From: an uncultured Paracoccaceae bacterium
GTDB taxonomy: Bacteria > Pseudomonadota > Alphaproteobacteria > Rhodobacterales > Rhodobacteraceae
Direction of reading: 5' to 3'
NCBI GenBank assembly: GCA_947498985.1
Contig: CANMMF010000001.1
Location: forward strand, 1 to 64,000
DNA length: 64,000 nt
Numbering within the stretch: the stretch's first letter is position 1; each line of letters begins with the position of its first letter. The notes beneath the pieces are model-generated. The model worked only from the letters and a program-made list of their open reading frames with translations, was not told the origin of the DNA and ran no database searches. The position numbers and the translations under genes were made by a program. Shown here one piece after another: positions 37,019-42,474 of the stretch.

Positions 37019-37069
37019 TGGCGATTGCGCGCGGTCGTCTCCGGGCGGCTGCGCGCTAGATCGCGGGTT

Positions 37070-38389
37070 ATGAACGAACAGGATCGATCAAAGGGCCTTG
37101 CCGTGCCGTCCGGGCGGATGTCGCGGGCCGTGCGCATGGGCGGGCTGACCGGCGGCATTCTGGGCTCTGCCGCTTTGGGCGGGGCGCGTGCGTTGCTCTC
37201 GGGTCAGCGGCCCGACCCGCGTGCGCTGCTGCTCACCCCCGGCAACGCGAGGCGCCTGACCGATGAGCTTGCGCGCATGCGCGGCGCCGCCATGAAGATG
37301 GGGCAGCTTTTGTCGATGGAGACCGGAGACATCCTGCCCAAGGAGCTGGCAGATGTGCTGGCGCGGCTGCGGGCCGACGCGCACATGATGCCGCCGTCAC
37401 AGCTCAAACGCTTGCTCGAGGCGGAATATGGCGCAGGTTTTCTCAAGCGTTTTGCGAAGTTTGACACGCGCCCCGTCGCGGCAGCCTCCATCGGGCAGGT
37501 GCACCGGGCGGTCACCAAGGACGGCCGCACGCTGGCGCTCAAGATCCAGTATCCCGGCGTGCGTGCGGCCATCGACGCGGATGTGGCCAATCTCGGCGCG
37601 CTGCTCAAGATGTCGCGGCTTCTGCCCAAAGACCTCGCGCTGGCGCCGTTTCTAGACGAGGCGCGCCGCCAATTGCACGAGGAAGCCGATTACACCCGCG
37701 AAGCCGAGCAGTTGCGCGCCTTCGCGGCGCTGATGGCGCAGGATGACGGGTTTGCCGTCCCGGAGGTGCATGCGGATTTCTGCACCGCTGCCATCCTCGC
37801 GATGGATTTTGTCGAAAGCCAGCCCATTGAAACGGTCGAAAATGCCGGGCAATCGCTGCGCGATGACGTCGCCACGCGCTTGTTTGCGCTGCTTCTGCGA
37901 GAGATCTTTGCCTTTCGACGCGTGCAGACCGACCCTAACTTCGCCAATTACCGCTGGCAGCCCGAGAGCGGGCGCATCGTCTTGCTGGATTTCGGCGCCA
38001 CCCGCGAATTTGCGTCGGATTTTGCCCAGGCCATGCAGGAGATCCTGCGCGCCAGCCTCGCCGGGGACCGGGCGCGCACCATGCAGGCCCTGCGCGCGCA
38101 GGGGATCGTGCCCGAAACCGCGCCCGACGGTCAGATGCGGGTGCTCGAACAGATGATTGCAATGGGGCAGGACACGCTGCGCCAGCCGGTTGTCGACTTT
38201 GGCGACACGCGCTTTCTCGAGGCCATGCGCGAGGCGGGCATGCAATTGGGCATGGAAGAGAACTTCCGCCATATCCCGCCGTGGGACGTGCTCTATCTGC
38301 AGCGCAAGCTGGGTGGGCTGGTGCTGCTGGCCACCCGTCTGGGCGCGCGTGTTCCGATGCGCGATCTGGCGAGCCGCTACGGCGCCTGA
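37070..38389 (+). CDS. ABC1/ADCK (AarF/COQ8)-type atypical kinase-like protein
   Basis: 439 residues. The hallmark K-x-G-Q motif appears in AAMKMGQLLSMETGDILPKELADVLARLR; the alanine-rich ATP loop AAASIGQVHRA, the lysine strand LALKIQYPGV and the metal-binding LLDFGATREF are present. COQ8/UbiB members support ubiquinone synthesis as ATPases; this bacterial subgroup (QTDPNFANYRW) resembles human ADCK3/COQ8A. Start at ATG 37070. Its 3' end overlaps the convergent pseudo-subtilase gene by 13 bases. Confidence 0.88.
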   Translation: MNEQDRSKGLAVPSGRMSRAVRMGGLTGGILGSAALGGARALLSGQRPDPRALLLTPGNARRLTDELARMRGAAMKMGQLLSMETGDILPKELADVLARLRADAHMMPPSQLKRLLEAEYGAGFLKRFAKFDTRPVAAASIGQVHRAVTKDGRTLALKIQYPGVRAAIDADVANLGALLKMSRLLPKDLALAPFLDEARRQLHEEADYTREAEQLRAFAALMAQDDGFAVPEVHADFCTAAILAMDFVESQPIETVENAGQSLRDDVATRLFALLLREIFAFRRVQTDPNFANYRWQPESGRIVLLDFGATREFASDFAQAMQEILRASLAGDRARTMQALRAQGIVPETAPDGQMRVLEQMIAMGQDTLRQPVVDFGDTRFLEAMREAGMQLGMEENFRHIPPWDVLYLQRKLGGLVLLATRLGARVPMRDLASRYGA

Positions 38390-39549
38390 ACCATTCCTGC
38401 GCCGACATTCAGACTGAACAGCGCAGGGTCGATCCCCTGCAGGGTTGCGTGACCCAGAAGCGCGGCGGCGAGCGCCTCGGCATGCACCTGCCGGCCCGAA
38501 CGGCGCAGATCCTCCGCCCAGAGCGCGGCGATCCCGACCGCGTGCCCCAGCGCCATCGCGGTGCCGTGCAGCGTCCTGACACCGCCGCCGGCGCGGGCCG
38601 ACACGATGCCCGCACCGGGCGCGGACAGGGCGGGTCCGGCGTTGGAGAAAACAGGCGGGCGCAGCATGTCGCCATCGTGGATCAGCGCGCCCACCGACAA
38701 CACGCCCCGCGCGGCTGCCGGGGCCGCGGGGCCGGTTTCGAAGAGCGGCGAGACCATGCGGCGGCTGTCATCGCCGACGGCCCCCATGACCAGCGGCGCG
38801 GTGGCCGCGACCTTCATCGCCAGCAGCATCTCGAAGATGCGCAGATTGCCGCGATAGGCGGTCTGCGCGGCGGCGGTCGCCAGCGTCAGCGGAAAGCCGT
38901 CCTCGGTCAGGCGCTCGATCTCGAAGGCGGTGTCGAAACAGAGCGAAAAGCCGATGATGTCCGGGCCCTGACGCATCGCCCAGAGAAAAGCGCGCAGAAA
39001 GCTTTCGGAACTGCCATGCCCGTCATCCGGCATCGCCTTGGCCACCAGCAGACGGTCAAGCCCGCGCGCCACACCGATGCGCAGACCCTCCACATCGCGG
39101 CCCAGCACCGTGCCTGCCAGATGTGTGCCGTGCCCGTTGGCGTCCTCGATGCCGCTGCCGGTGCTGTCATGCGCCTCGATCTGCACGCCGTGAAATGCCG
39201 GGTGATGCGCATCGATCCCGGTGCCCAGCAGCGCCACGCGACCACCCGCGCCGGTCAGATCGCTGCGTTTCGCGCCCACCGCCTCGAGGCCCCAGCCCGC
39301 AACCGTGTCGCCGTCGCGCAATTCGTCCAGCGGCTCCGATCCGATCAGGCGGGTCGCGACGGCGGGCGCGAGCGCCAGCAGATCCGACGCGTTGATCACG
39401 TCGCGCAACTGCGAAATCGGCACGTCCAGCACGTCGATCTCCGGATCGGCGCCGGCCTCCGCATCGCGCGGCGCGGCCCCTCGCAACGTGGCTGGCGCAG
39501 GCCGATGCCAGTTGCCGGACCGGTCGCGCAAGGCAATGAACCGCGTCAT
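38377..39549 (-). CDS. Subtilase (S8) homologue lacking catalytic residues
   Basis: 390 residues with a subtilisin fold but no signal peptide. The Asp motif (usually D-T-G-I) reads LLGTGID (Gly109), the His motif NGHGTHLAGT is intact (His140), and the Ser motif (usually GTSMA) reads GTAMALGHAVG (Ala331). The oxyanion Asn region (usually AAGN) reads MGAVGDD. So at least two triad residues are missing and it should be inactive. [17 protein letters not shown] still shows the family. Codon use and length are normal and the frame intact, so it looks like a retained pseudoenzyme, perhaps a binding protein. Confidence 0.85.
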   Translation of the reverse strand: MTRFIALRDRSGNWHRPAPATLRGAAPRDAEAGADPEIDVLDVPISQLRDVINASDLLALAPAVATRLIGSEPLDELRDGDTVAGWGLEAVGAKRSDLTGAGGRVALLGTGIDAHHPAFHGVQIEAHDSTGSGIEDANGHGTHLAGTVLGRDVEGLRIGVARGLDRLLVAKAMPDDGHGSSESFLRAFLWAMRQGPDIIGFSLCFDTAFEIERLTEDGFPLTLATAAAQTAYRGNLRIFEMLLAMKVAATAPLVMGAVGDDSRRMVSPLFETGPAAPAAARGVLSVGALIHDGDMLRPPVFSNAGPALSAPGAGIVSARAGGGVRTLHGTAMALGHAVGIAALWAEDLRRSGRQVHAEALAAALLGHATLQGIDPALFSLNVGAGMVQAP

Positions 39550-39648
39550 GAAAAACTCCGGAGCGAAATCAACTTCGCCCCAAATCTAACGCGCTGCTGT
39601 GGATAACGTCAGGGGGTCTAGCGTAAAAACTGCGTAATTTCGCGCCCG

Positions 39649-40635
39649 TCAGAGCCCCGCATCGCGGAAAAGCCGCAGCAGGCTGGCCTCGGGGCGCGGT
39701 CCGATATGGCTGATGACCTCTGCCGCCGCCACGCATCCCATGCGCCCTGCGGTGGCCATATCCGCCCCGGTCGCGAGCCCGTAGAGAAAGCCCGCCGCGA
39801 ACTGATCCCCGGCGCCGGTGGCGTCCACCGGCACCACCCTTGTGACCGGCACATCGGTGCGCACGCCGTTTTGCAGAATCGTGACCCCGTCGCCGGAGCG
39901 GGTGCAGACAACCAGCGGGCAGATCGACGAGACCGCGGTGAGATCGGCCTCCAGATCGTCGTTCTGAAAGAGCGACCGGATCTCTGCCTCGTTGCCGATG
40001 ACGTAATCCATCTCGTGCTCGATGAGGTTGAGAAAGTCCTCGCGGTGCCGCTCCACGCAGAACGGATCCGAAATCGCGATCCCGGCCTTGCCCCCTGCCG
40101 CGCGGCAGGTGCGGGCGGCGCGCAGGAACGCCTCCTTGCCCTGATCCTTGTCGAAGAGATAGCCCTCGAGAAACACGATCTCGGTTTCTGCCGTCACGTC
40201 TTCGGCCACATCATCGGGGCCAAGCTCGGCCGAGATGCCCAGATAGGTGTTCATCGAACGCTCCCCGTCCGGTGAGACGAAGATCATGCTGCGTGAGGTC
40301 GGCAGACCGCCCGCCGCAACCGGGTCATTCACGAAATCGGTGCCGTCCTTTTCCATCGCCTGCGCGTAGAACCGGCCCAGCGCGTCGCCGTTGACCCGCC
40401 CGATGAACGCCGTGCGCAGACGCAGATTGCCGAGCCCCGCCATGGTGTTGGCCACCGAGCCGCCGGGGGTCTGCACCCGGTGTTCCATGGCGCCGTACAG
40501 CGTCTCACCGCGTTCTCGGTCCACAAGCTGCATGATGCCCTTCTGGATGCCCATCAGATCGAGGAATGTGTCCTCGGCACGCGAAATCACGTCGACCACG
40601 GCATTGCCGATGCCCACGACCTGGTACTTTTTCAT
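39649..40635 (-). CDS. PfkB-family sugar/nucleoside kinase (adenosine kinase-like)
   Basis: 328 residues: VVGIGNAVVDVI at the N-terminus, QTPGGSVANTMAGLGNL, and the anion-hole/catalytic motif DATGAGDQFAAGFLYGL near the C-terminus. Best fits the alphaproteobacterial adenosine kinase-like branch of the PfkB family. The track start is 82 codons too early; the ATG at 40635 overlaps the nth stop (ATGA), so it is cotranslated with nth. Confidence 0.9.
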   Translation of the reverse strand: MKKYQVVGIGNAVVDVISRAEDTFLDLMGIQKGIMQLVDRERGETLYGAMEHRVQTPGGSVANTMAGLGNLRLRTAFIGRVNGDALGRFYAQAMEKDGTDFVNDPVAAGGLPTSRSMIFVSPDGERSMNTYLGISAELGPDDVAEDVTAETEIVFLEGYLFDKDQGKEAFLRAARTCRAAGGKAGIAISDPFCVERHREDFLNLIEHEMDYVIGNEAEIRSLFQNDDLEADLTAVSSICPLVVCTRSGDGVTILQNGVRTDVPVTRVVPVDATGAGDQFAAGFLYGLATGADMATAGRMGCVAAAEVISHIGPRPEASLLRLFRDAGL

Positions 40636-41276
40636 TCGGTCTTGTCCTCGAACTGGCAAAGATCGCGTATCAGACACGCCTTGCATTTGGGTTTGCGTGC
40701 CACGCAGGTGTAGCGGCCATGCAGGATCAGCCAGTGATGCGCATGGCGTTGGAAATCCACGGGAATGTTGTCCTCGATGGCGCGTTCGACCGCGACCACG
40801 TCCTTGCCGGGGCAGATGCCGCTGCGGTTGCCGACACGGTAGATATGGGTGTCGACCGCCTGTGCCGGATGGCCCCACCACATGTTGAGCACCACATTAG
40901 CGGTCTTGCGCCCGACACCCGGCAGGCTTTCCAGGGCGGCGCGGCTGCAGGGCACCTCTCCGCCGTATTCATCGACCAGAAGACGGCTGAGCTTGATGAC
41001 ATTTCTGGCCTTGTTGCGGTAAAGCCCGATGGTCCTGATGTGTTCGGTGACGCCCTCTTCGCCGAGATCGAGCATCTTCTGCGGTGTGTCGGCCACCGCA
41101 AAAAGCCCGCGCGTCGCCTTGTTCACCCCGGCATCGGTCGCCTGGGCGCTCAGCGCCACGGCGACCACCAGCGTGTAGACATTCACATGCTCAAGCTCAC
41201 CCTTCGGTTCGGGCTCCGCGTCGTGAAAGCGCGCAAAGATCTCGCGGATCGTATGGTAGTCAAGCTGCCTGGCCAT
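40632..41276 (-). CDS. nth: Endonuclease III
   Basis: Base-excision repair glycosylase/AP lyase for oxidised pyrimidines. 214 residues: helix-hairpin-helix LPGVGRKTANVVL with the catalytic Lys, AVDTHIYRV with the catalytic Asp, and a 4Fe-4S loop C-x6-C-x2-C-x5-C as CVARKPKCKACLIRDLC. Overlaps the kinase gene downstream by 4 bases. Confidence 0.96.
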   Translation of the reverse strand: MARQLDYHTIREIFARFHDAEPEPKGELEHVNVYTLVVAVALSAQATDAGVNKATRGLFAVADTPQKMLDLGEEGVTEHIRTIGLYRNKARNVIKLSRLLVDEYGGEVPCSRAALESLPGVGRKTANVVLNMWWGHPAQAVDTHIYRVGNRSGICPGKDVVAVERAIEDNIPVDFQRHAHHWLILHGRYTCVARKPKCKACLIRDLCQFEDKTE

Positions 41277-41426
41277 GGCCTGCTATGCAACGCCGCGCCC
41301 GCCGGGACAAGCCCGCGCTTGCGCGTCTTGCCGGTCCGGTGCCGCAAAGAGCGCCCCGCCACTTGCGCAACATTCGGGTCGTGCGCGCGCAGCGCAGCGC
41401 CTAGATTGCGTACAAGGAGACACGCC

Positions 41427-42269
41427 ATGCCCAAAGACCACGATCAGAGCTACCATTTTCAGGTGATGCGCCGGGCCATCGACTGCGTTGACCGCCTTGG
41501 CCCGCAGGCCACGCTCGACGCGCTGGCCGCCGAGATGGACATGAGCCCCGCGCATTTCCAGCGCCTGTTCACCCGCTGGGCCGGTGTCTCGCCCAAGCGC
41601 TACCAGCAATATCTGACGCTTGGACATGCCAAGGCGCTGCTGGCGGAGCGGTTCACCACGCTGGAGACAGCACTTGGCACCGGTCTTTCGGGCAGCGGGC
41701 GGCTGCACGATCTCTTCTTGCGCTGGGAGGCGATGAGCCCGGGCGATTACGCGCGCGCCGGGGCAGGGCTGACCATTCACTGGGGCTGGTTCGACAGCCC
41801 CTTCGGCCCGGCGCTGGTGATGGGCACCAAGAAAGGCATCTGCGGCATTGCGTTTTCGGCGGAATCCGGGCCCGGGGAAGCGATGCGCGATCTCACCGCG
41901 CGCTGGCCGCAGGCGGATTTTGTCGAGAATGCCGACGCTTTGGCGCCCTGGGTCGCGTCGGCCTTCGGGGTGGCCGAGGGCGGGCCGGTGCCGCTCTACC
42001 TCATCGGCGCGCCGTTTCAGATCAAGGTCTGGGAGGCGCTCATGCAGGTCCCGTCGGGGCATGTCACGACCTATTCGGAGCTTGCGGGTGCGGTCGGGCA
42101 CCCCAGGGCGGTCCGCGCGGTCGGCACGGCTGTGGGCCGCAATCCGATCAGCTATCTGATCCCCTGCCACCGCGCCTTGCGCAAATCCGGCGGGCTGGGC
42201 GGGTACCATTGGGGATTGCCGATCAAACGCTCGATCCTCGCCTGGGAGGCGGCGCGGGCGGAGGCGTAG
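41427..42269 (+). CDS. AraC-HTH plus O6-methylguanine-DNA methyltransferase (Ada-like, no N-terminal domain)
   Basis: 280 residues: an AraC-type HTH (ATLDALAAEMDMSPAHFQRLFTRWAGVSPKRYQQYLTLGHAKALL) followed by an Ogt domain with the methyl-acceptor Cys in IPCHRA (about residue 247) and VWEALMQVPSGHVTTYSELA. The N-terminal Zn-Cys phosphotriester-sensing domain of E. coli Ada is absent, so it may repair O6-alkylguanine without the Ada switch, or sense differently. ATG 41427 follows AAGGAGA. Confidence 0.9.
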   Translation: MPKDHDQSYHFQVMRRAIDCVDRLGPQATLDALAAEMDMSPAHFQRLFTRWAGVSPKRYQQYLTLGHAKALLAERFTTLETALGTGLSGSGRLHDLFLRWEAMSPGDYARAGAGLTIHWGWFDSPFGPALVMGTKKGICGIAFSAESGPGEAMRDLTARWPQADFVENADALAPWVASAFGVAEGGPVPLYLIGAPFQIKVWEALMQVPSGHVTTYSELAGAVGHPRAVRAVGTAVGRNPISYLIPCHRALRKSGGLGGYHWGLPIKRSILAWEAARAEA

Positions 42270-42326
42270 CCGGGGGGCCAGCCCCCCGGGCCCCCCGGCG
42301 GTATTTTCAAAGAGAAGAAACAGGGG
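42270..42326. repeat. GC-rich dispersed repeat, copy 1
   Basis: CCGGGGGGCcaGCCCCCCGG, then CCCCCCG, GTATTT and a purine-rich GAAGAA tail, directly after the Ada-like stop. The first part is a strong hairpin. A second copy is at 50631. It resembles intergenic elements that recur near gene ends in Rhodobacterales. Confidence 0.7.
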
Positions 42327-42474
42327 CGAGGCGCTTGTTGTGACGGCTGGCCGTGGCATTGAGCGATTTCCCGCCGAAATCGCCGCGACTTTGCACTCGG
42401 ATCAACCCATGTTTTTGGATATCAAGCGGTCAGACCCCATGAAGAAGGGGCCAACAAACATAAAGAGGCTTACC

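Follow-up and report, generated by a model that had tools for sequence, protein, structure and literature searches.

A probable S8 pseudoprotease downstream of pfkB whose catalytic substitutions are private to one genome

The window, by which we mean the whole stretch of 64,000 nucleotides analysed here, contains a gene (coordinates 38377–39549, minus strand) whose 390-residue product was described in an earlier note as an intact subtilase lacking its catalytic Asp and Ser, and the locus thus raises the question of whether such a protein is kept for a role other than proteolysis or is a protease in the course of being lost. The reading frame begins with ATG and runs without a stop or frameshift, which rules out a pseudogene with a broken frame. 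Pfam Peptidase_S8 matches residues 102–364 of the product (the window protein; E 5.7e-17), phmmer against the PDB also places it among the S8 subtilases, and the PDB neighbours of its AF2 model identified by Foldseek are subtilisins (best 1c9j, E 1.1e-18), such that it belongs to S8 by both descent and fold. The model (mean pLDDT 79.7, pTM 0.80) is mostly above 90 in the catalytic domain, and has a helical insert of ~45 residues after the SLG motif (helices at residues 207–216 and 221–244). The AF2 input was limited to the window protein, L037 and viral-contig relatives, and because of this the N-terminal region is poorly modelled. The N-terminal segment (residues 1–86; 39292–39549, minus strand), delimited by alignment and of low AF2 confidence, opens with M-x-x-(I/F)-x-LRD, which is conserved in the subfamily, and from its position and a helix at residues 45–52 we infer that it includes a propeptide-like region. 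Its residue P65 is invariant in 29 other subfamily members and is Ala in the window protein. Inspection of the N-terminus (MTRFIALRDRSGNW) reveals no run of hydrophobic residues, in agreement with the earlier statement that a signal peptide is absent.

Alignment with intact orthologues and direct reading of the codons (all on the minus strand) locate the active-site changes precisely. The catalytic Asp is replaced by Gly at codon 109 (GGC, 39223–39225; VALLGTGID) and the catalytic Ser by Ala at codon 331 (GCG, 38557–38559; HGTAMALGH), which bears out the absence of both residues read previously from LLGTGID and GTAMA. The oxyanion Asn, thought earlier also to be missing, is indeed Asp at codon 260 (GAT, 38770–38772; MGAVGDDS), and the catalytic His is kept at codon 140 (CAC, 39130–39132; NGHGTH); this His motif, together with Pfam, AF2 and Foldseek, supports the claim that the general fold is retained. 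In place of the Asp-His-Ser triad and oxyanion Asn of an active S8 peptidase there are thus G109, H140, D260 and A331, and a protein of this fold in which one or more catalytic residues have been substituted, with no compensating residue, qualifies as an S8 pseudoprotease. The only Asp near G109, D113, corresponds to the second of the two conserved Asp residues in DTGxD, and no Ser or Cys adjoins A331 in HGTAMALGH. A triad at shifted positions, which the note had allowed for, is ruled out, as the intact orthologues carry D, N and S in exactly the same columns. Among 30 aligned subfamily members, 29 have each of these three residues, as do 38 of the 39 sequences in a broader set; the window protein (G, D and A) is the sole exception in both. 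By the same alignment, codon 335 (GGG, 38545–38547, minus strand) encodes Gly where a near-invariant Pro follows the Ser (Pro225 of subtilisin BPN'), a position occupied by Ala in 13 relatives.

Orthologues were sought in 397 genomes of the bacterial family, and the set was enlarged through sister species and a search at the level of the order. Clear full-length relatives are patchily distributed, occurring in 13 other genera among the 397 genomes at 36–57% identity (L008–L020), and counterparts of the window pfkB, HhH-GPD, unassigned and OmpA-family genes are present at all 13 loci (the pfkB match at L018 is weaker, 48%); the S8 relatives are therefore positional orthologues. In the window, the pfkB-family kinase gene (39649–40638, minus strand) is the upstream neighbour on the same strand, an order conserved in other genera, and the window protein, encoded directly after it and falling among the orthologues in the tree, belongs to this pfkB-linked group. 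It resembles the pfkB-linked members L008–L017, L068, L069 and L074 (46–57% identity) in position, length, N-terminus and the 45-residue helical insert, and most of them also share the upstream repeat described below, but where they have Asp, His, Asn and Ser it retains the His only. Among the neighbouring genes, Pfam recognises pfkB, HhH-GPD, ABC1 kinase, OmpA and FMN reductase. The end of the ABC1-kinase gene (37025–38389, plus strand) overlaps the end of the S8 gene by 13 bp, and an ORF at 41283–42359 (minus strand, 358 residues) has no Pfam match and has counterparts in all 13 loci at 38–59% identity. One scan of the genome contigs returned a single relative.

The catalytic D-H-N-S set is kept in every orthologue examined, which rules out an ancestral loss fixed in the family, and Gly109, Asp260 and Ala331 are, in the aligned sequences, private to one genome; Gly109 and Ala331 do not prove to be fixed among Rhodobacterales S8 homologues, as the note had proposed to check by alignment. 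Two orthologues, L019 and L020, are fast-evolving and keep the catalytic residues, L019 with ~10 residues deleted after the His motif and L020 with GTSMAAAY where others have GTSMAxxH. The second genome of the genus (the sole other one examined) has pfkB at 86% identity and lacks the S8 gene, of which the region beside pfkB shows no recognisable trace; the gene is therefore dispensable there. An ABC1-kinase relative in this genome (65% identity) lies on a different contig away from pfkB, such that the locus is arranged differently.

Away from the active site, the window protein looks as constrained as its intact relatives. There are 76 columns that are invariant in 14 orthologues, and the window protein differs at five of them (P65A, D109G, F129S, N260D and S331A). 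Catalytic columns account for three of the five departures (three of the four catalytic columns; hypergeometric P 5.6e-4, a value conditional on the gene having been chosen for its missing catalytic residues). The number of non-catalytic invariant residues changed is independent of how the gene was chosen and is only two of 72, about the same as in intact orthologues, and constraint on the rest of the protein therefore persists. With ten orthologues, six of 85 invariant columns are departed from, and the private changes outside the catalytic residues are P65A, F129S and A299P. No region of the window protein is more than 6 points less similar than it is among the others. Rates were compared as the ratio of the S8 terminal branch to the neighbour-protein branch, on the topology of the concatenated neighbour proteins; this ratio is 3.24 for the window protein, 0.9–6.5 for intact ones, and 3.32 and 3.48 for the two most similar intact sisters. 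Its branch (0.57–0.63) is the longest of the close clade, two fast outliers aside. Against the close clade, the window gene has a mean pN/pS of 0.58, intact sisters falling at 0.475–0.60, and omega between intact sister pairs is 0.11–0.31, which shows that purifying selection acts on the gene family. Accelerated decay was considered and is not seen in either branch rate or pN/pS, and the earlier assessment that the gene is not decayed stands on these values and on its retained promoter-like element and ribosome-binding site. Since dS to the nearest relatives is ~1, a recent relaxed phase in the window gene is also compatible with the data.

The tree places the window protein inside a clade (support 91) whose members have Ala instead of the Pro that follows the catalytic Ser, the window protein itself having Gly. 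The SLG substrate-wall motif has changed within this clade too, to ALS, SLC, ALA and similar. Branches within the close clade are weakly supported, and the window protein is sister to L009 with support of 54. The natural Pro-to-Ala change, at the position of P225A in subtiligase, occurs in otherwise intact proteases (L008–L014, L019, L020, L068, L069 and L074). As the subclade was already without the Pro and had an eroded SLG motif, the dismantling of the active site was stepwise: loss of the Pro and erosion of the substrate wall came first, in the subclade, and loss of the Asp, oxyanion Asn and Ser last, in the window lineage alone.

Signals upstream of the gene are kept as well. A direct repeat of the form (W)TNACG-N5-(W)TNACG with a period of 11 bp (39622–39638, minus strand) lies 89 bp before the ATG, and 14 of the 19 other orthologues (L008–L012, L015–L017, L019, L020, L068, L069, L074 and L076) have it too, mostly 84–97 bp ahead of the start codon. 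For the strict form, TTNACG-N5-TTNACG, the expectation is 0.02 occurrences per window; the copy in the window departs from it in having A in place of the first T. No such repeat was found beside pfkB in the genus mate. The repeat looks like a site of the response-regulator type; the published motif of CenR is TGA-N8-TGA (PMC9275681), and we claim no match to it and do not propose CenR as the reader. Nor does the repeat serve as a regulon marker, as a tighter form, TTNACGC-N4-TTNACG, is absent from the window genome and has three sites, including the S8 promoter, in genome G319. A Shine-Dalgarno-like GGAG (39556–39559, minus strand; read directly) lies 6 nt before the ATG. A hairpin with a T-run (39557–39584, minus strand) just before the S8 start overlaps the Shine-Dalgarno region and is possibly the pfkB terminator, although sites of this kind are also expected by chance.

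Taken together, the catalytic losses, the constraint elsewhere, the kept repeat, ribosome-binding site, frame and predicted fold, the stepwise precursors and the precedent of CspC (below) favour a lineage-specific, recently arisen cytoplasmic S8 pseudoprotease kept for binding or regulation, which we regard as a fairly probable reading. That the window protein is non-proteolytic is well supported by comparison of the aligned sequences, and its maintenance by selection is likely. The note had supposed that selection maintains a non-proteolytic function, and this is plausible and stays unproven, the substitutions being private to one genome and the genus mate having no gene. Peptide-bond hydrolysis would be abolished, and the N-terminal propeptide-like segment would then not be cut off and would stay attached, as in CspC, probably plugging or lining the cleft. 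The change P65A lies within this segment, where AF2 is not reliable, and would fit relaxed demands on its release. The protein may work as a cytoplasmic regulator or scaffold by binding a peptide or a partner protein, whether its one-time substrate or an active protease. Of the roles suggested earlier, a regulatory one in the cytoplasm would be compatible with the lack of a signal peptide and with the protease cascades around outgroup relatives, and binding of peptidoglycan crosslinks finds no support. Counting against a maintained pseudoprotease are its occurrence in one genome only, the missing gene in the genus mate, the long branch, and P65A and F129S.

Several of these same facts would be expected if function had recently been lost, the protease having become unnecessary or harmful in the genus, the catalytic residues having gone first through drift or selection against activity, and an intact-looking relic persisting before deletion. 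The private catalytic losses, the genus mate without gene or remnant beside pfkB, the patchy distribution (~13 clear orthologues in 397 genomes) and the long branch all agree with this. Drift that removed three of four catalytic residues, however, should have struck the other 72 invariant positions similarly, and only two have changed; there is also no stop or frameshift, pN/pS is as in intact sisters, and the upstream element and ribosome-binding site are kept. A short neutral phase following a selected loss of activity would escape the tests of rate, pN/pS, frame and upstream element, and a recent loss is accordingly a real possibility, though one we lean against. Prohormone convertase 2 tolerates Asp at the oxyanion position, and with His140 kept one might envisage slow or single-substrate peptide cleavage by unusual chemistry with His140 and Asp260, but loss of the Asp and Ser removes the charge relay and nucleophile, with no Ser or Cys next to A331, and we consider such activity very improbable. 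Sequencing or assembly error is more improbable still: a single genome of the lineage is behind the substitutions, but they are three separate functional-site changes in one otherwise clean frame on a 677-kb contig, in a genome with a rated completeness of 100% and contamination of 0%, and are accompanied by the further private changes noted above.

S8 pseudoproteases are already known, and the window protein adds another member. CspA and CspC of Clostridioides difficile are likewise subtilisin-fold pseudoproteases, with two triad residues lost, that exist alongside an intact relative, CspB, and the CspC prodomain is unprocessed owing to its triad substitutions (PMC6636752). CspC has lost His and Ser and kept Asp, whereas the window protein has lost Asp and Ser and kept His; CspA and CspC, unlike the window protein, act in spore germination and carry a jelly-roll insertion (~130 residues), the window insert being ~45 residues and helical. 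Plasmodium PIMMS2 is also a subtilisin-like pseudoenzyme, in which residue loss varies between orthologues, but it is eukaryotic and has a signal peptide and transmembrane segment (PMC5520436). Subtiligase is subtilisin with S221C and P225A (PMC7921005); at the Pro225 equivalent the subclade similarly has Ala, and the window protein Gly, but the nucleophile position of the latter is Ala rather than Cys, and we do not suggest ligase activity. The intracellular subtilisins (ISP) of Bacillus lack a signal peptide and have a short inhibitory N-terminal extension of the LIPY/F type; a signal peptide is not seen in the window protein either, but the LIPY/F motif is absent and the N-terminal region is longer, and it does not fit this group.

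The active relatives against which pseudoproteases are set are usually distant ones; here intact orthologues occupy the same locus at 53–57% identity and the subclade holds intermediate states, such that the conversion of a protease into a binding protein, or its death, is open to direct test. The locus further draws attention to a cytoplasmic S8 subfamily, apparently unstudied, that has a conserved element upstream and is related to proteins of defence-like protease loci. Relatives at 35–43% identity are encoded on plasmids as caspase-S8-CHAT-TIR (Sphingomonas), CHAT-S8-TIR (Agrobacterium), CHAT-S8-trypsin (Sinorhizobium) and S8-trypsin (Bradyrhizobium). The plasmid proteins of Sphingomonas and Agrobacterium have the architecture of the subfamily, insert included (39–43% identity), and intact triads, the Sinorhizobium protein being more distant (35%); all three are encoded among defence-like genes, whereas the window gene stands alone after pfkB, its neighbours including no caspase, CHAT, TIR or trypsin gene of the kind found in these plasmid loci. 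This context points to protease cascades as the ancestral role, as background only and not as the function of the window gene. Inactive peptidase domains of conflict systems have been proposed to act as decoys, dominant-negative regulators or peptide binders (PMC7159879). In a less probable scenario, a bacterial cytoplasmic S8 family related to the proteases of caspase/CHAT-TIR loci would have been converted, first at the Pro following the Ser, next at the SLG substrate wall and finally at the triad and oxyanion residues, into a dedicated non-cutting binding protein with its old promoter, giving at one chromosomal site a natural series from active protease to regulator. A partial literature search found no published study of an S8 arrangement with caspase, CHAT and TIR. 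The caspase/CHAT-S8-TIR and CHAT-S8-trypsin loci, in which the subfamily relatives L070 (Sphingomonas plasmid), L071 (Agrobacterium pTi), L181 and L182 occur, are possibly uncharacterised protease-cascade defence systems.
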